From the NCBI GenBank assembly GCA_016214905.1, contig JACRMQ010000007.1, positions 695,695-759,694 of the forward strand: 64,000 nucleotides of DNA, read 5' to 3'. Below, in pieces: positions 852 to 8,525 of this stretch. The first letter of the stretch is position 1. Each line of letters opens with the position of its first letter. The position numbers were made by a program, and so were the translations under genes. The notes under the pieces were generated by a model. That model did not search any database. It had not been told where the DNA came from and was given only the letters and a program-made list of their open reading frames with translations. The stretch comes from Ignavibacteriales bacterium (GTDB lineage: Bacteria > Bacteroidota > Ignavibacteria > UBA10030 > SZUA-254).

Positions 852-1907
852 ATGAAATGGTTCCATCACGAATGCGCTGCTCGACACGATCCCAAGCTTC
901 AGGTTCTCGGTTCAACCTACGGAGCGGAAGGGATCGGTATCTATTGGGGATTACTTGAAGATATCGGTCAGCATTCGGATACATTTCATCTCAAACTCAC
1001 CGGAATTTCTCCCGAAATCGATCAAAAGTTTTCCAACACCGCATCTGGTTCCCAATTTCTATTGAGGAATCCTCAGAGCATACCTCGTCTCCCTCTCAAG
1101 ATTCTTTCAAAAAACTTATTCACATCACCCAAAAAGTTAAAGAATGTTATTGAACTTTGTGTTGAGGTCGGATTGTTCGATTCCGATAAGTGGCTGAATT
1201 ATAATCTATTGTATAGTCCCTCGTTCGAACAACGTGCGGATGATTATACAAGGCGTGTACAGAGACAAGCAAACAATATCCGAACAGAGCTTGGACAAAC
1301 TACAGCTGAAGTTCGAAGCATACCTGTCCTGAGCAGAGTCGAAGGATCCGAAGATTCTCAGAATAATATCCGAACTAAGTCTGACAAAGTTCTCCCAGAA
1401 ACAGATACAGAACAGAAAAAGAATATATGCAATACATCTGCTGTGAATAATTTATCAACAGATGAGTCATTCTTAATCGAATTATCGGATGAACTCTTCG
1501 ATCAGTATTGTTTGAAATTTCATTCAGCGCTTCAATTGTGGAATCGTCAGCATGGAAGTACCATCGATTGGAATCCTAAATTGAAGGAGCTAAAAAAACT
1601 TTTTTCCGGTGGTGAGTATCAACATAAACTCGATATGTGTTTTCATGCCTACAAGATACTCGGAAATAAAATCAATTATCCGGAACTCGTGATGCGGGCA
1701 CTGCATCTTTTCTTGGAGAAGTATGAAAAATCAAAGATTGATAATCCATTTGGTTGGTTATGGACATGTTTACACGGCAATGGCAACGGAAAAACACCAT
1801 GGGTTCAACTTATGACAGCTGAGGAAGAACAAAGTTTAACTATCTCCCCATTATCAAGGGGGAGATTAATGCCTGTCCCGAACGAACGTGCGGGAAGGGG
1901 GTCATAA
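852..1907 (+). CDS. DUF4373 (Lin1244/Lin1753-like) domain protein, putative element replication protein
   Basis: The N-terminus (MKWFHHECAARHDPKL then EGIGIYWGLLEDIG) matches the DUF4373 pattern found in phage and element replisome-organiser proteins, which combine this domain with a DNA-binding or primosome-loading C-terminus. Residues about 1-130 form this domain; the C-terminal half is helical and unassigned. An AGGAAG sequence lies just upstream of the start. Two stretches look foreign: residues near 160-175 (PVLSRVEGSE) are encoded by a dispersed repeat with CCTGAGCAGAGTCGAAGG, and the last 20 or so residues come from a CCCC...GGGG repeat. The original C-terminus may therefore have been replaced. 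Replication function is inferred from the family. Confidence 0.65.
   Translation: MKWFHHECAARHDPKLQVLGSTYGAEGIGIYWGLLEDIGQHSDTFHLKLTGISPEIDQKFSNTASGSQFLLRNPQSIPRLPLKILSKNLFTSPKKLKNVIELCVEVGLFDSDKWLNYNLLYSPSFEQRADDYTRRVQRQANNIRTELGQTTAEVRSIPVLSRVEGSEDSQNNIRTKSDKVLPETDTEQKKNICNTSAVNNLSTDESFLIELSDELFDQYCLKFHSALQLWNRQHGSTIDWNPKLKELKKLFSGGEYQHKLDMCFHAYKILGNKINYPELVMRALHLFLEKYEKSKIDNPFGWLWTCLHGNGNGKTPWVQLMTAEEEQSLTISPLSRGRLMPVPNERAGRGS
1321..1346. repeat. Dispersed repeat fragment inside the DUF4373 gene
   Basis: The core CCTGAGCAGAGTCGAAGG resembles the CTGAGC...GAGTC repeat that recurs in many environmental genomes and, when translated, gives the VLSRVEG string. It is in frame, so the gene stays open. 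Its family assignment rests on pattern recognition, not on a search. Confidence 0.4.
1838..1905. repeat. CCCCTTGATAAGGGG-type hairpin repeat forming the end of the DUF4373 gene
   Basis: TCTCCCC and GGGGAGA arms flank ATTATCAAG, followed by a further G-rich tract at 1890-1905. Related hairpins lie at 14505-14524 and 14557-14575. The repeat encodes the odd Arg/Gly/Pro-rich C-terminal tail of the protein and its stop. Confidence 0.5.
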
Positions 1908-2552: not shown

Positions 2553-2825
2553 ATGACACTCAAAGAATTACAACCTTGTACTCACATAAAGCGTAGCGAC
2601 CGCATTATTGAATTTGAGAAGCGTATGAAGCGGTACAATGCCTTGTGTCCGCTTTGTGCAAAACCAATGGTGTGGGAAAACTGGACAAAACTCCACGAAC
2701 CGCTCCGTGCAAAGTGTAACGATTGTGGTCTTACTTTGCCAAGCACAGAAATCAGTCTAGAAATCAAAACAGGAAAGGAGATCAACCATGAATCGTCAAT
2801 ACATCATTCGACAAATTCTTTATAA
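2553..2825 (+). CDS. Small zinc-ribbon protein
   Basis: A 90-residue protein with two Cys pairs, CPLC (about residues 32-35) and CNDC (about 54-57), the spacing of a single zinc ribbon; the N-terminus is basic. A GGGAG sequence precedes the ATG, and the gene starts 4 bases after the polymerase-like gene. The 3' end overlaps the next gene by 38 bases, so the two are probably coupled. A nucleic-acid or protein-binding role is possible but not shown by the sequence. Confidence 0.6.
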   Translation: MTLKELQPCTHIKRSDRIIEFEKRMKRYNALCPLCAKPMVWENWTKLHEPLRAKCNDCGLTLPSTEISLEIKTGKEINHESSIHHSTNSL

Positions 2826-3033
2826 CTGGACTCGCACACTTCAAATTGAAGAACAGAGTGGAGAATCATTTATTACTTCAGAAGATATTGATCGGTTGAA
2901 CGATGAATTAATATCAATCGTAGAACCTCCTCGCATAAGCTTACTTGTGAATAGCGTTCTGGAACGCATTCGTAATCTTAAAGCTCGAATAACTGGAATA
3001 AAAATCTCTGCTAATTTATTTCATCCGTTATGA
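2788..3033 (+). CDS. Small hypothetical protein of the element
   Basis: An 81-residue, mostly helical protein of no family I recognise. It is supported as a gene by a strong ribosome binding site (AGGAAAGGAGATC) 5-6 bases before ATG 2788, and by overlaps with the genes on both sides (38 bases upstream, 4 bases downstream in the ATGA manner). The last residues are hydrophobic, but no transmembrane helix is clear. Confidence 0.55.
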   Translation: MNRQYIIRQILYNWTRTLQIEEQSGESFITSEDIDRLNDELISIVEPPRISLLVNSVLERIRNLKARITGIKISANLFHPL

Positions 3034-4682
3034 TTGCTCCAACACATATAACGTTCGCAGAATTCATCTATCTTCTTATTCTTACGACAACCGGGATTTC
3101 GTTAAGTGCCATTAATTTTGTTACGATCGTTTTTGCCTCGATATTAGCAGATGTCGATACCGCTGCGAGTACCGTTGGCAAAGTTATACCTTTTCTCTCC
3201 ACGAGAATCGAGAGGAGATTTGGTCATCGTACACTCACTCATTCTGCTTTATTTGTCGTGGCTCTCTCCATTGTAACTCTACCGCTCTTCGCTCTAAGCT
3301 CTGATCTCTACATTTGTTTTATCATCGGTTATGCTTCCCATCCTTTGCTCGACACCATGACTGTTACCGGTGTGAAATTATTCTATCCGCTATCTCCGGT
3401 GAAGTGCGTATTTCCATTTGAAGTCAATAACCCGCACCGCTACCGTGTGCAAACTGGTGGCAAGATTGATAAAATGCTTGCAATTCTCTTTTTCATTGGC
3501 TGTATCCCAACGTTTCTTATAGCTTATCAGGGTTATGAGAGGTTTATCAGAACAACACAAAGAAATATCGAAGCAGCTGTCCGGGATTACAATCAGTTTT
3601 CAAAAGATCATCTCGTCTTTGCAAATGTAACTGGTTATACGATGCTAACCAAAGAACCATTGAACGGCCGATTCGAAGTTGTCGGTGCACTGAATCCTCG
3701 TACACTTATTTTCAAGGGCACTGATGGATTGCTGCATACGCTGGGGAAAGATTTTCAGGCTGATTATGTCGCAGAGGAAATCGTTTGCGAGAAAGGTACA
3801 CTTGCTTATTCTAAAGTGAACAATATAGATTTGAGTAATCAACTGCTCTCCCAAATAACATCCTACATCGATACCTCGATTGAAAATTATTTTTTCGGTG
3901 ATCTCTCCACATCGGATAAGATATCACTCCCGGAAAACATCAAACTCTTCAGCCCTGTTTCCGGTAGCAGTGCTACAATCAAGTTCAACTATGCAACATT
4001 CAATGATATCCGTGAATATAATCTCGAATACGTATTCATAACAAAAGGGATCATTACTGTAAAATCGATTATTCGAAAGGGACCAGAAACATATCAGAGT
4101 AGTGAAACGCCATCGCATCACGAAAATTATGCCCAGTTTTCTTTGACAATTAATGCTAAGGAGACAATCACATTCCTCAAAGAAAAAGGTGATACAGTCA
4201 GAGAGAAAGAAGTAATTGCCAGAAGAGATCTTGCTCAGTTTTTCGAGGAACAAATAAATCTAAATGACGATAAGATTCAAATATTAGTGAACCAGGAATC
4301 TGCCTCGCTAATGGATATTAATCAAAAGATATCGGCTGCCGAACAATCGGTCAGAATAGATTCTATTGACCATGGTAATAATCTTGATCTCACTAAAAGC
4401 AGTTTTGTTACTAAAGCAGTTCTCGATATTAGCAGATTAAAACTTCAAAAAGATAAACGCATCCTATCTGAACTGATTTCCTCACGAAGCACCATAGTAG
4501 AAAAGACATCTCACGAGATTCGTAAGTTACGATTATCGAATCAACAACTGAGAGCAAAGCAAAAGGCAGCCGAGATGCAGGTGGATATCCGATCAACCGC
4601 AACCGGAATTCTTGTGGATGTTCGCCAGCATCAACAAAACAATAAACTTCAAATCACATTTATAATTAAGCGAATCCCATGA
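3030..4682 (+). CDS. YdjM/DUF457 membrane hydrolase fused to an HlyD-like adaptor region
   Basis: Residues 1-170 are a membrane-bound DUF457 (YdjM-type) domain: hydrophobic segments at about 10-40, 73-105 and 148-170, with candidate metal ligands H6, D41/D43, H66 and H71 in HRTLTHS, and H104/D108 in SHPLLD. The remaining 380 residues are soluble and end with the plan of a membrane fusion protein: a half lipoyl-like motif (EKGDTVREKEVIAR, about 390-403), a long coiled coil, then the matching half (TATGILVDVRQ, about 526-536). I know no described protein with both parts. It overlaps its neighbours by 4 bases at each end, so it is co-translated with the ATPase genes downstream. Domain calls are from motifs; the function is unknown. 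Confidence 0.7.
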   Translation: MIAPTHITFAEFIYLLILTTTGISLSAINFVTIVFASILADVDTAASTVGKVIPFLSTRIERRFGHRTLTHSALFVVALSIVTLPLFALSSDLYICFIIGYASHPLLDTMTVTGVKLFYPLSPVKCVFPFEVNNPHRYRVQTGGKIDKMLAILFFIGCIPTFLIAYQGYERFIRTTQRNIEAAVRDYNQFSKDHLVFANVTGYTMLTKEPLNGRFEVVGALNPRTLIFKGTDGLLHTLGKDFQADYVAEEIVCEKGTLAYSKVNNIDLSNQLLSQITSYIDTSIENYFFGDLSTSDKISLPENIKLFSPVSGSSATIKFNYATFNDIREYNLEYVFITKGIITVKSIIRKGPETYQSSETPSHHENYAQFSLTINAKETITFLKEKGDTVREKEVIARRDLAQFFEEQINLNDDKIQILVNQESASLMDINQKISAAEQSVRIDSIDHGNNLDLTKSSFVTKAVLDISRLKLQKDKRILSELISSRSTIVEKTSHEIRKLRLSNQQLRAKQKAAEMQVDIRSTATGILVDVRQHQQNNKLQITFIIKRIP

Positions 4683-5482
4683 CCTATATTTGCTCAAAAT
4701 GTGATCGCTCGTTCCCGACATTTCATCTTTCGTGTCCTGATTGCGGCACTTGGAATTCTCTCAAACAGAATGCAAAGCATTTTTCACACGAGGATGCGCA
4801 TCCGATAGCATTACCTAACATCGATTCTTTTGTTGTGCCCCGGAATAAAACAAGAATTGAACAACTTGATATGTTGCTTGGCGATGGTTTCGTTCCCGGA
4901 AGCTGTGTGCTTCTCATTGGCCCACCGGGTGCTGGAAAATCCACTTTAGTTATGCAAATACTCAAAAAGATGAATGTCCCGTCTCTCTATGTTACCGGTG
5001 AAGAATCGGTTCAGCAATTAAAGCTCAGGGCAGACCGATTAAGGATTAACTCGAAGTGCGTTTTCCTCCTTTTTGAAACGAATGTTAACAATATCGTTTT
5101 ACATGTCAATGAAACATCAGCAAAGGTATTGGTTATCGATTCCATTCAAACGATGTATACCGATGTGTCTGATGCTCTACCGGGAAGTTCGACTCAGATT
5201 CGTAAGTGTGCTTATATCCTTCGTCGACTTGCGCAACAGCAGAATATAGTTCTCATGATTGTCGGGCAAGTAACAAAGGATAAAAAGGTTGCCGGTCCGA
5301 AACTTCTTGAACATGCAGTCGATGTTGTACTATATATAGAAGTGGAGGAAGACAAACATCATCACCGCATTTTGTTCACTACAAAAAATCGGTTTGGCTC
5401 GACCGTTCCTCGTTGCCTCCTTTATATGCGAAAAACCGGTTTAGTTTTTTCACGAAGTGATGCCCTCGGCACACAAGATTGA
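4679..5482 (+). CDS. RadA-like ATPase lacking the Lon-like C-terminal domain
   Basis: The order of parts is that of RadA/Sms: an N-terminal C4 zinc finger (CSKC, CPDC within residues 4-22), Walker A GPPGAGKST (about 81-89), Walker B LVIDSIQT and the RadA signature KNRFGST near residue 235. RadA is about 450 residues and carries a Lon protease-like domain after this; here the protein stops at 267 residues soon after KNRFG. Host RadA is a branch-migration helicase in recombination; this shorter copy could do a similar job for the element or power a partner. The ATG lies inside the stop of the upstream membrane fusion gene (ATGA), so the products are probably made together. Confidence 0.8.
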   Translation: MTYICSKCDRSFPTFHLSCPDCGTWNSLKQNAKHFSHEDAHPIALPNIDSFVVPRNKTRIEQLDMLLGDGFVPGSCVLLIGPPGAGKSTLVMQILKKMNVPSLYVTGEESVQQLKLRADRLRINSKCVFLLFETNVNNIVLHVNETSAKVLVIDSIQTMYTDVSDALPGSSTQIRKCAYILRRLAQQQNIVLMIVGQVTKDKKVAGPKLLEHAVDVVLYIEVEEDKHHHRILFTTKNRFGSTVPRCLLYMRKTGLVFSRSDALGTQD

Positions 5483-5485
5483 AAT

Positions 5486-6502
5486 ATGAACGATCAACAA
5501 ACAATGGATCTCCGTCAGGATACAACATTCTTTGGAAGGACTGAAGAACTGTATCAGCTCGTAAGAAGTCTTCAACGAGGTCGTCATGCGCTAATTGTCG
5601 GCGATAAAGGAATCGGCAAAACCCGACTCATGACGGAAGCAAAATGGATCCTTTCGGGTCGGACGAAAAGGATCGACTTCTCTGCTAACATTATAACCCA
5701 GATCAGAGGCCAGCTTGGAGTTCGTATTAATCCAAACCAATACAAGATTCTTTTCATAGAGCATTCCAGCCCGCTCGGTGATTGCATGAAAGAAATGACA
5801 GAAAAACTATTTTATAACGGTGATCTTCATATCGATCTTGATGAGGAGCGAGCAGATTGGCAAACAATGAAAAAACACCTTTCTGGTTTTGGTAGTATCA
5901 AGCTTCAGTCGATCATCTTCGAAGGTATTTCTCAGTCCGATAAATCATACCTCATTTTCTTCGATGAGCTTGATAGAATATCTCCGAGTCAACAGAAATT
6001 CATAGAGACCTTACTCAACATTGCTGTCATTTGTACTGCAGTCGTACAGATGAAAGAGAATTTCCTTTTCAAACGAATCTGGGCATCATTCTCGCGAATC
6101 AACTTAGAACCGTTGCCAGAACAAGTAAGCATCCAGCTTATCAATTACTTTCTTCAGAATTATCCTTTACATATTATCGATTCAGAGCTATATCGGCGAG
6201 AAATATTGAAAGCTTCTAATGGAAATCCATTCCACATTAAAAATATGCTCTGGCATGGATCAAGGGAAAAGTATGTTGATGCTGAAGAAATTCGAAAACT
6301 CAGACAAGTAGATGAAGGACACTATTTCAATATGGGACCGATCTATATCTTTGGAATTGCCATGTTTACCTTATTCAAAATCTTTTCCATCGGTACCGAT
6401 AATCAGGAATTCTATATTTACTTCTCCGCACTCGGTTTCTTCGCATACTTGGTCTTTCGGGTATTCAGAGCTTTCTTCCTCTTCCGCCCACAGAAATACT
6501 AA
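5486..6502 (+). CDS. AAA ATPase with C-terminal membrane anchor
   Basis: Residues 15-290 are an ORC/ExeA-like AAA ATPase: FFGRTEEL at the N-terminus, Walker A GDKGIGKT (about 39-46) and Walker B IFFDELDRIS (about 157-166). Two hydrophobic segments near residues 288-306 and 312-331 should anchor it in the inner membrane with the ATPase in the cytoplasm. It starts three bases after the RadA-like gene and so belongs to the same transcription unit as the membrane fusion protein. A membrane-linked motor or switch is an inference; no substrate is visible. NTPase domains of the NACHT/STAND type were considered, but no sensor repeats follow. Confidence 0.7.
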   Translation: MNDQQTMDLRQDTTFFGRTEELYQLVRSLQRGRHALIVGDKGIGKTRLMTEAKWILSGRTKRIDFSANIITQIRGQLGVRINPNQYKILFIEHSSPLGDCMKEMTEKLFYNGDLHIDLDEERADWQTMKKHLSGFGSIKLQSIIFEGISQSDKSYLIFFDELDRISPSQQKFIETLLNIAVICTAVVQMKENFLFKRIWASFSRINLEPLPEQVSIQLINYFLQNYPLHIIDSELYRREILKASNGNPFHIKNMLWHGSREKYVDAEEIRKLRQVDEGHYFNMGPIYIFGIAMFTLFKIFSIGTDNQEFYIYFSALGFFAYLVFRVFRAFFLFRPQKY

Positions 6503-6516
6503 TAGAATTGACTCAA

Positions 6517-6690
6517 ATGGATAGAAGAAAAAAATACGAAGAGGACGTCAAAATCGAGATCATTGAAGAAGAAGAAATGACAGCTAAGGAAGTTGATTTA
6601 GCATTAGAACATATGGCCGAAAGGTTGATTGATGATTGGCTGAAGAAGAATAATGTTGGCACTATAACTAAAAGAGAGCAAACAATTTGA
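6517..6690 (+). CDS. Small acidic helical protein upstream of the recombinase
   Basis: A 57-residue, highly charged peptide (Glu-rich centre, basic N-terminus) beginning at ATG 6517; a TTG at 6508 could add three residues. No clear ribosome binding site precedes either start. It sits between the ATPase gene and the recombinase, where elements often carry a small DNA-binding or directionality factor, but no helix-turn-helix is evident. Function unknown. Confidence 0.45.
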   Translation: MDRRKKYEEDVKIEIIEEEEMTAKEVDLALEHMAERLIDDWLKKNNVGTITKREQTI

Positions 6691-6759: not shown

Positions 6760-8493
6760 ATGAATCTTGCTGTAGGTTATGTTCGCTGTTCTACTGACAT
6801 GCAAGATGATTCTGTTCCACAACAGAAACGTGCGATTCAGGATTGGGCGGACAAAAACGATTACAAAATAGTTGATTGGTATATTGATGAGGGGAAAAGC
6901 GGTACCTCATTTGAGAAACGTCCCGGTTTCATGAAACTTGTACGTGATGTCGAATCATATCCTTTATTTAATTCTGTACTTGTCTATGATGAAAGCAGAT
7001 GGGGTCGACCGAATAATCCAAGAGAGAATACATATTGGAAGGTTCATTTTGAACGGTATAATGTTCGGGTTAAAGTGATTAATAGTCAATCACGAAATGA
7101 AAATGATATCGGCAGCTTTGTAGTTGAAGTAGTTGAAAGTGCCGAGGCAAGTGAATATTCAAAGAAACTTTCACGCGCTACGCTCCGAGGTGCATTTGCA
7201 AATACTGAAAGAGGATTTAGTAGTGGTGGTTTTGCTCCATACGGTTACAAGCGTGTAGCTATCGACAAATATACAGGTCATCAGAGAGTATTAGGAGCTA
7301 TCAGAGATGAAAATGGTAAAGAACGAACCGAGCCATCTAACAAAAAGCAAGAAAAAGTAATCTGGGAATTGGGCGATCCCTTTGAAGTCGAAACCGTGAA
7401 GCGGATCTTCGATCTCCGATTAAAGGGTTACGGTTATGTTGCAATTGCAGATATACTCAATGAAGATAGAATTCCTTGTGCAAAGAAAGGTCGCTGGCGT
7501 AACAAAGATATGAAATGGAGCGGTGGCACAATACGCTATATTCTGACTAATCGAACTTACGCTGGTGTGAGAATTTATAACCGCCATCCACTAAGTCATC
7601 AAAGAATGCCTGTCAAGGCAAAATGGGAAAATGATATAAAAGATTTCGTTATTAAGGAGAACGCTCATCCAGCTATTATATCGAAGGAGATTTTTGAGAA
7701 AGCGAATTTGATAGGTGTCGGTAAATGGGCAAAGGGTGCAAAAAACATTGTAAAAAGCGAATATCTTTTAAGTGGACTCATCAAGTGCGGTAAATGCGGT
7801 TTCAATTTTCAGGGCTGGACTCATTCATCACATGCTGGTAAAACGAGGATTGGTTATTACGTTGATGGTGGATATGCAAACAAAGGCAAATCGGTGTGCT
7901 CGCAGTTCTTGATTAGAAGGGATAAACTTGAAAGTTTTGTTATCAATCATATCAAAAAGTACTTTCTTACACCAAACATTTTCGATAGACTTCATCAAGT
8001 TATTGAACGCAAAATCGCTCGTTTGGGATTGAACAAGCAGTCAAGGTTAGAACAGCTCAAAACTCAACGAATAGATCTCGATGGTCGAATTGACAATCTT
8101 GTGAGAGTCATAGAAACTGGTGTTGATATTGAGAATCTTGTTAAGCGAATTAAGGTTTTGGAAGAAGAGCGTAAATGTATTGATGAAGAAATAACGAAAT
8201 GCTCAGAAGCTAATATTAATCGCGGAGATATTCAGGATCTTGCAAGTCAGATTGCAGAAGGTTTGAAGGACTTAGAGATTGATCTTGAAAGCGATAATAT
8301 ATTTGAGAAGAAGCAACTCATCCGGCGGTTCGTACGACAAATAATTGTCGACAGGGTAAACATGAAAGCTGTCTGCTACATAAAGAAAATTCCGACAGTA
8401 ACCCACAAATTAGCGGATTTATTTGCACCGTCGGAATCTTCGGTCATTATTGTAGCGGGGGCAGGACTTGAACCTGCAGCCTTTGGGTTATGA
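6760..8493 (+). CDS. Large serine recombinase (integrase)
   Basis: This enzyme catalyses site-specific integration and probably excision of the element. Residues 1-150 are the resolvase catalytic domain, with the nucleophile Ser at position 11 (YVRCSTDMQ). The recombinase domain follows (about 185-300), then a zinc beta ribbon (CGKCG near residue 345, partner Cys near 380) and a coiled coil (about 425-500). The start has AAGGTG 6 bases upstream. The final 13 or so codons (GAGLEPAAFGL) lie inside the tRNA-fMet gene, so the C-terminal tail depends on the chromosome side of the junction and would change on excision. Length (577 residues) is normal for the family. Confidence 0.92.
   Translation: MNLAVGYVRCSTDMQDDSVPQQKRAIQDWADKNDYKIVDWYIDEGKSGTSFEKRPGFMKLVRDVESYPLFNSVLVYDESRWGRPNNPRENTYWKVHFERYNVRVKVINSQSRNENDIGSFVVEVVESAEASEYSKKLSRATLRGAFANTERGFSSGGFAPYGYKRVAIDKYTGHQRVLGAIRDENGKERTEPSNKKQEKVIWELGDPFEVETVKRIFDLRLKGYGYVAIADILNEDRIPCAKKGRWRNKDMKWSGGTIRYILTNRTYAGVRIYNRHPLSHQRMPVKAKWENDIKDFVIKENAHPAIISKEIFEKANLIGVGKWAKGAKNIVKSEYLLSGLIKCGKCGFNFQGWTHSSHAGKTRIGYYVDGGYANKGKSVCSQFLIRRDKLESFVINHIKKYFLTPNIFDRLHQVIERKIARLGLNKQSRLEQLKTQRIDLDGRIDNLVRVIETGVDIENLVKRIKVLEEERKCIDEEITKCSEANINRGDIQDLASQIAEGLKDLEIDLESDNIFEKKQLIRRFVRQIIVDRVNMKAVCYIKKIPTVTHKLADLFAPSESSVIIVAGAGLEPAAFGL
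8453..8493. other. Probable attachment site (attR) within tRNA-fMet
   Basis: The stretch shared by the recombinase 3' end and the 3' half of the tRNA gene is where element meets chromosome. Insertion here would rebuild the tRNA 3' end and leave a direct repeat of part of it at the other end of the element, which is outside the window. The exact core cannot be defined from one junction. Confidence 0.5.
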
Positions 8494-8525
8494 GCCCAAC
8501 GAGCTACCAATTGCTCCACCCCGCG
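8453..8525 (-). tRNA. Initiator tRNA-fMet (CAT)
   Basis: A 73-base cloverleaf with CAT anticodon. The initiator marks are clear: three consecutive G-C pairs at the base of the anticodon stem (GGG...CCC around CTCATAA) and an unpaired position 1-72 (C1 with T72; E. coli has C-A). The body is close to the E. coli fMet sequence, starting CGCGGGGTGGAGCA. The 3' CCA is not encoded in full (CA after the discriminator A). It is transcribed towards the mobile element and serves as its integration site. Confidence 0.93.

Follow-up and report, generated by a model that had tools for sequence, protein, structure and literature searches.

The sequence analysed here, called the window throughout, is a stretch of 64,000 nucleotides from the 3.3-Mb genome of an Ignavibacteriales bacterium (G000:C7:695695-759694), in which a mobile element carries genes for a YdjM-HlyD fusion protein and a membrane AAA ATPase. 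A YdjM and AAA gene pair is conserved across many lineages, and no description of the set was found among the open-access papers listed in literature searches (titles and starts of abstracts; subscription papers and preprints were not searched). The preferred reading, to which a probability of about 0.4 is assigned, is that the set forms a mobile-element conduit across both membranes, exporting DNA without a type IV secretion system. An earlier note on this DNA had proposed an envelope-linked system without a known description, serving DNA handling, transfer or defence; its first part is supported by the recurrence of YdjM with AAA in many lineages and by the outcome of the literature search, and such a role would be plausible.

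Recurrence of the YdjM and AAA gene pair

An alignment of six YdjM sequences, compared with genomes, detected 55 loci, many of them in metagenome-assembled genomes with uncertain phylum labels. A same-strand AAA gene was found in 37 of the 55 by using a profile (A1) built from the AAA proteins of the window and of plasmids, and not from these loci. The stronger YdjM matches (L030-L075) have it in 37 of 46 cases and the short, weaker ones (L076-L084) in none of nine; this division, based on E-value and length, was made after the results were seen, and two of the nine, L076 and L077, could be pieces of long YdjM genes, so that seven remain as clean controls. The idea that any YdjM is the key gene was rejected on the result for the nine short loci. 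Seven of the nine stronger loci devoid of AAA (L031, L040, L041, L045, L064, L067, L069) have too little sequence on the expected side; L071, with enough flanking sequence, and L073, which is incomplete, are unexplained. The AAA matches are fragmentary in L051, L063, L065 and L075, and weak in L052.

The reciprocal test started from a Nostoc AAA query, which matched 50 plasmid records. When the lists were compared by eye, 40 of the 42 cyanobacterial plasmids covering at least 62% of this query also matched the Nostoc YdjM query, and the two places lie within 5 kb of each other in 38 of the 40; those in CP143873 meet where the record starts, and those in CP073019 belong to different copies. The remaining two plasmids, CP117772 and AP017376, are absent among the best 60 of the 66 records matched by the YdjM query. 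The AAA profile is rare in the phylum of the window (three of 296 genomes at E 1e-12, host genome counted), and single-protein searches of 198 genomes of that phylum gave, beyond the host genome, no more than two matches for AAA and two for YdjM, all of them weak and partial.

The AAA protein of the window matched 11 plasmid records, three from Nitrosococcus, four from cyanobacteria and one each from Allochromatium, Methylobacter, Flammeovirga and Thermus, and a YdjM gene lies near AAA in all 11. The order of the genes varies between lineages: AAA precedes YdjM in the gammaproteobacterial, Thermus and cyanobacterial plasmids seen, and follows it in Ignavibacteria. Gammaproteobacterial plasmids show a TolC-like gene (annotated as hypothetical), AAA and a YdjM of about 370 aa, preceded in Nitrosococcus by small genes. 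Thermus has AAA, usually some small genes, a TolC family gene, small genes again and a YdjM-HlyD of about 545 aa. On the Thermus plasmid pTthSNM7-6d the YdjM-HlyD frame is split in two (L028 14682-16315).

Cyanobacterial plasmids carry AAA and a YdjM of about 347 aa, followed in most by a DUF87 ATPase. Clustering showed a HlyD-like gene in six of the loci, and HlyD-like and TolC-like genes lie further downstream in Nostoc, Tolypothrix and pSYSX. The latter plasmid, from Synechocystis 6803, has two places matching the set, one of which (L093 4346-10895) shows AAA, YdjM, DUF87, HlyD-like, TolC-like and thermonuclease genes in this order; the AAA and YdjM pair is also found on a plasmid of Picosynechococcus PCC 7002.

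No phage record was matched by the AAA query, nor did single-protein and small-alignment scans of viral contigs give a relative. A wider alignment detected one contig with YdjM and AAA, L029 (IMG/VR), where the two genes share the segment 4848-7676 with a fragment resembling a tyrosine recombinase. This contig is catalogued as viral and may instead be a plasmid or an integrated element.

The element of the window and the smallest shared set

The genes of the element are reported below, in window coordinates unless a contig position is given.

C7:691533-692435, + strand: tyrosine recombinase-like gene, upstream of the window
C7:692936-693808, + strand: lipoprotein-like gene, upstream of the window
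C7:694090-694728, + strand: TolC-like gene, upstream of the window
G000:C7:694698-695105: protein of 135 aa, encoded after the TolC-like gene and before F476; its match to a type IX secretion sorting tail is below threshold
1-850, + strand: 3' part of F476 (476 aa, function unassigned), the full gene being G000:C7:695114-696544, with its start 580 bases outside the window
852-1907, + strand: Lin1244/DnaD-like replication initiator of the element backbone (PF14297, E 3e-13; phrog_2562, replication initiation), with relatives in L030, L031 and L035
1997-2548, + strand: small PolX/DNA polymerase beta-like protein of the element backbone (PF14791, E 5.7e-13), with relatives in L030, L031 and L035
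2553-2825, + strand: CxxC ("zinc ribbon") protein, 90 aa, outside the conserved core, without relatives in 12 related loci
2788-3033, + strand: 81-aa protein without family match, outside the conserved core, without relatives in the 12 loci
3030-4682, + strand: YdjM-HlyD, 550 aa, core (PF04307; AlphaFold2 and Foldseek)
4679-5482, + strand: RadA/Sms-like ATPase, 267 aa, without the C-terminal Lon-like domain (TIGR00416; alignment to solved RadA)
5486-6502, + strand: AAA ATPase, 338 aa, with a C-terminal pair of hydrophobic segments, core (PF13191)
6508-6690, + strand: acidic protein, 60 aa, without relatives in the 12 loci
6760-8493, + strand: large serine recombinase (PF00239, PF07508, PF13408), its 3' end overlapping the tRNA gene
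8452-8525, - strand: tRNA-Met (CAT), where the element presumably integrated and has its right end (tRNA search; recombinase overlap in L030, L035 and L089)

The earlier note had singled out the five genes between 2553 and 6502. The open reading frames confirm that all five are on the + strand, with adjacent ends overlapping or 3 bases apart, and the identities proposed for YdjM-HlyD, the RadA-like protein and the AAA ATPase with two C-terminal segments hold. The zinc ribbon of the 90-aa protein is a weak assignment, as this protein matched no Pfam family at the cut-off. As a system the five-gene set does not stand, the zinc-ribbon and 81-aa genes being without relatives in the 12 loci; the upstream TolC-like gene belongs to the set instead. 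The proposed mobile-element setting agrees with the serine recombinase running into tRNA-Met. A similar recombinase overlaps tRNA-Met in L030 and L035, and tRNA-Leu in L089. A left end was not found: about 60 kb of upstream sequence contains no repeat of the tRNA-Met region, except for one 12-base match.

YdjM-HlyD and RadA occur together in L030, L031, L032, L034, L035 and L089, followed by AAA except in L031, where the contig ends. Locus L033 has TolC-like, YdjM-HlyD and AAA genes without RadA; similarly L090 and L091 (two copies in genome G231), L036 and L037 contain tyrosine recombinase, YdjM-HlyD, lipoprotein-like, TolC-like, F476 and AAA genes, again without RadA. The smallest shared set thus consists of TolC-like, YdjM(-HlyD) and AAA genes. 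F476 gave no Pfam match above the cut-off and no NCBIfam match; its family includes members in L030, L031, L032, L034, L035 and L037, identified by clustering, and further HMM matches in L036, L069, L089, L090 and L091.

Upstream of the window, at G000:C7:657000-689300 (L002, L003), inspection by eye suggested a metal-resistance-like gene run, with RND pumps, adaptors, a P-type ATPase and cation efflux genes, which might be cargo of the same element.

Predicted features of the encoded proteins

The YdjM domain of the fusion protein (PF04307, E 7.6e-27) covers residues 1-157. The layout consists of a YdjM part resembling membrane metal-hydrolases (1-190), a beta domain (194-349) and a HlyD-type membrane fusion domain (367-548). 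In the AlphaFold2 model (mean pLDDT 83, pTM 0.50) the HlyD part forms a helical hairpin, made of 402-456 and 462-516 (2 x 55 residues), between two barrel halves; in a Foldseek search with this part the adaptors MacA and EmrA ranked first (E about 1e-5), HlyD following at 2e-4. The HlyD architecture is predicted with good confidence. Residues 175-258 resemble the C-terminal domain of TrmB, an archaeal regulator (3qph, 2f5t; Z 11.3, rmsd 2.2, 83 aligned residues). Seven residues, H6, D41, D43, H66, H71, H104 and D108, are invariant in 26 YdjM sequences; H104 is not conserved in the cyanobacterial YdjM proteins of a separate alignment. A search of the PDB with the YdjM profile gave no match.

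The AAA protein matches AAA_16 (PF13191, E 7.5e-10) and, by a hydropathy threshold, has hydrophobic segments at 286-304 and 315-333. By the same threshold, both segments are present in 11 of 13 AAA sequences, that of the window included, with one in L015 and none in L017. G42, G44, K45 and D160 are invariant in the 13 sequences. The best 60 of 549 PDB matches to the AAA profile include generic P-loop proteins only. Fusions of AAA with a tyrosine recombinase domain are found twice, on a Flammeovirga plasmid (L017 9284-10876) and a WOR-1 contig (L047 232-1701); the catalytic residues, examined by eye, are kept in the former and degenerate in the latter.

TolC-like proteins accompany the core in Thermus, gammaproteobacteria, Ignavibacteria and cyanobacteria, and have about half the length usual for TolC. 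The Pfam OEP model matches the TolC-family protein of Thermus brockianus (E 3.6e-13), 10 of 29 pooled members (best 1.4e-15) and four of eight Ignavibacteria-type members (best 1.3e-10). A profile of the pooled members, which contains Thermus and cyanobacterial sequences, matched CmeC (1.3e-5) and TolC (9e-5) in the PDB, the matches spanning 1e-5 to 1e-3; profile-profile comparison between the TolC-like branches revealed no significant link. The structure model of one relative has low confidence (pLDDT 69) and gave weak structure matches. Many high-Z rows in the structure comparisons were discounted as long helices. The TolC assignment in the element of the window is weakly suggested by the homology of its relatives, by position and by pattern.

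The RadA-like protein matches TIGR00416 over residues 2-256, with a score below the cut-off of the model, and solved RadA (5lkm/8rxc) with E about 3e-54. Alignment to 5lkm shows an N-terminal cysteine finger, the ATPase core and the KNRFG motif; the match to the model stops at position 278 of 454 and the protein ends at 267 aa, so that the Lon-like domain is missing. Among the loci examined this ATPase is confined to the Ignavibacteria branch, and the two coupled ATPases of the earlier note are therefore not a general rule, the idea surviving in the cyanobacterial sets with a different second ATPase of HerA/TrwB type. The latter is represented by the DUF87 protein of Tolypothrix, with matches to the TrwB DNA-binding domain (PF10412, E 3.5e-9) and to DUF87 (E 1.8e-6); some of its relatives are annotated as "type IV secretion system DNA-binding domain-containing protein". 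Used as a query it matched 140 records, and all 28 with coverage of at least 80% are also among the YdjM records, as compared by eye.

Candidate function and comparison with known systems

In the proposed mechanism the YdjM domain would lie in the inner membrane, the periplasm would be bridged by the HlyD-like part joined to it or by a HlyD-like protein encoded separately, and the small, single-repeat TolC-like protein would oligomerise as the outer-membrane exit. The AAA ATPase, predicted at the inner membrane through its C-terminal hydrophobic pair, would recruit or remodel the substrate, taken to be element DNA, and power or gate the conduit that leads from the inner to the outer membrane. 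The active site of YdjM would serve to open or condition the membrane. Delivery of DNA may be aided by lineage-specific ATPases, HerA/TrwB-like in cyanobacteria and RadA-like in Ignavibacteria, and by DNA-binding and tyrosine recombinase-like proteins. We infer the role of TolC in the element of the window, the assembly and the substrate; DNA is suggested as substrate because of these two kinds of ATPase, the fusions of AAA with tyrosine recombinase, the ArdA antirestriction genes on two carriers (pSYSX and a Picosynechococcus plasmid), and because the transfer genes searched for are missing from the host genome.

A wider proposal, slightly more tentative than the preferred reading, is that plasmids and integrated elements of many phyla are moved by a DNA-export machine made of these parts, similar to conjugation and without relation to type IV secretion. 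It would explain the mobility of many plasmids typed as non-mobilizable, those of model cyanobacteria included. The non-mobilizable type was assigned to 108 of the 137 plasmid records matched by the YdjM-HlyD query of the window, many of which match over the YdjM part only. It was also assigned to 10 of 11, 48 of 50 and 25 of 25 records in the overlapping lists of the AAA queries, and to nearly all cyanobacterial and Thermus carriers found; the typing is weak for understudied phyla, and there is no base rate. For the spread of such plasmids a conserved, unnamed envelope module is a direct candidate, and it occurs in laboratory cyanobacteria, as the set on pSYSX and as the AAA and YdjM pair on the Picosynechococcus PCC 7002 plasmid.

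Several observations, in addition to the weakness of the typing, weigh against DNA export by such a conduit. Two carriers in the 50-record Nostoc AAA list, one of them from Dolichospermum, are typed as conjugative, and some carriers thus also have a classical conjugation system. No relaxase was found in the host genome by searching for the MOBP-type and MobA/MobL families (PF03432, PF03389), for which controls matched in Lactococcus; PF01076 gave no match in the host genome nor in the controls. The tyrosine recombinase of the element has lost HxxR, a motif of tyrosine recombinases. No ATPase of DNA-pump type is annotated near the gammaproteobacterial and Thermus sets seen, for which no profile search was made. 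The gammaproteobacterial YdjM proteins of the alignment are without the HlyD half, and a single cyanobacterial HlyD profile did not detect a separate HlyD gene in these loci. As for the outer-membrane exit, the TolC-like protein of the element itself has no OEP match, the Ignavibacteria-type and gammaproteobacterial profiles, each taken alone, matched no TolC in the PDB, and the structure search with the model of the relative gave nothing under E 0.1. A role in segregation would account equally well for the ParA genes found near the set.

Neighbouring transporter genes, seen by eye, also count on this side. MacAB-like genes lie beyond AAA on the opposite strand in L033 (13234-16790), and a RND-like gene lies downstream in L032 (6623-9820) and L034 (15622-18825). 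These neighbours are not common to other loci, and ordinary efflux may be at work at these three.

The MacAB-like genes of L033 fit an unlikely, still credible, rival, in which the set resembles type I secretion and exports a protein, a peptide or a small molecule of benefit to cells with the plasmid; AAA and YdjM would then stand in for the usual transporter. Tripartite export is characterised by TolC-like and HlyD-like parts, and thermonuclease/NucA-type nucleases, several with signal-like N termini, are present on several carriers (L015, L017, L018, L020, L023, L024, L025, L026, L028, L092, L093). Such nucleases would fit DNA processing as well as export. However, no recurrent cargo gene was recognized among the families present in at least four loci, whose representatives were judged by eye, and the HerA/TrwB-like and RadA-like ATPases and the recombinases beside the set point to DNA.

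Those same recombinases enter a second rival, held improbable, in which plasmid DNA is anchored at the envelope so that plasmids are partitioned or multimers resolved, much as membrane-bound FtsK acts on XerCD. ParA or ParAB genes occur near AAA in Thermus and on two cyanobacterial plasmids, a gene annotated as DNA-binding precedes AAA in Dolichospermum and Anabaena, and AAA is fused to a tyrosine recombinase in two lineages; yet some recombinase domains have lost catalytic residues, and partition needs neither an outer-membrane TolC-like protein nor a periplasmic HlyD arm. Exclusion or defence at the envelope against incoming phage or plasmid DNA is very unlikely: an AAA protein with a membrane protein is a common defence theme, and several plasmids have restriction-modification or other defence genes close to the set, but PADLOC found no hallmark protein among 10 proteins and gave only weak P-loop matches, the best (1.6e-7) to mad8.

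Among known systems, tripartite efflux and type I secretion (TolC with HlyD, MacA or EmrA) share the adaptor fold and a TolC/OEP-like partner in the relatives. A periplasmic adaptor with barrel-sandwich and helical hairpin is present in the window, according to AlphaFold2 and Foldseek. Here, however, the adaptor is fused to YdjM and does not meet an ABC, RND or MFS transporter, the ATPase is of AAA type, and the genes are carried by plasmids and integrated elements. By Pfam, such transporters are absent from the window genes, with YdjM and AAA_16 in their place, and for lack of this partner the set of the window does not belong to type I secretion or efflux systems.

Type IV secretion shares with a cyanobacterial member the TrwB-type DNA-binding ATPase domain (PF10412). 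VirB4 (PF03135) is absent from the host genome, its control having matched in Caulobacter, and for this reason the set of the window is not a type IV system by membership; a TraG-D_C match barely over the cut-off was found in a 1013-aa frame on another contig (G000:C6:685168-685368, L094). With bacterial RadA/Sms, the window protein has in common the cysteine finger, ATPase core and KNRFG motif, and differs in being without the Lon-like domain.

The nearest published idea by function is Thermus transjugation (TdtA, NurA; ICETh1), an unconventional conjugation with an FtsK/HerA-family ATPase, as described in PMC5365140 and PMC7767461, with which the set would share element-borne DNA donation. 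The main text of PMC5365140 does not mention TolC, HlyD or a hydrolase. In composition the set agrees with none of the classes with which it was compared. Even if the substrate is not DNA, an adaptor-YdjM fusion paired with an AAA ATPase would represent a new layout for an envelope-spanning machine.

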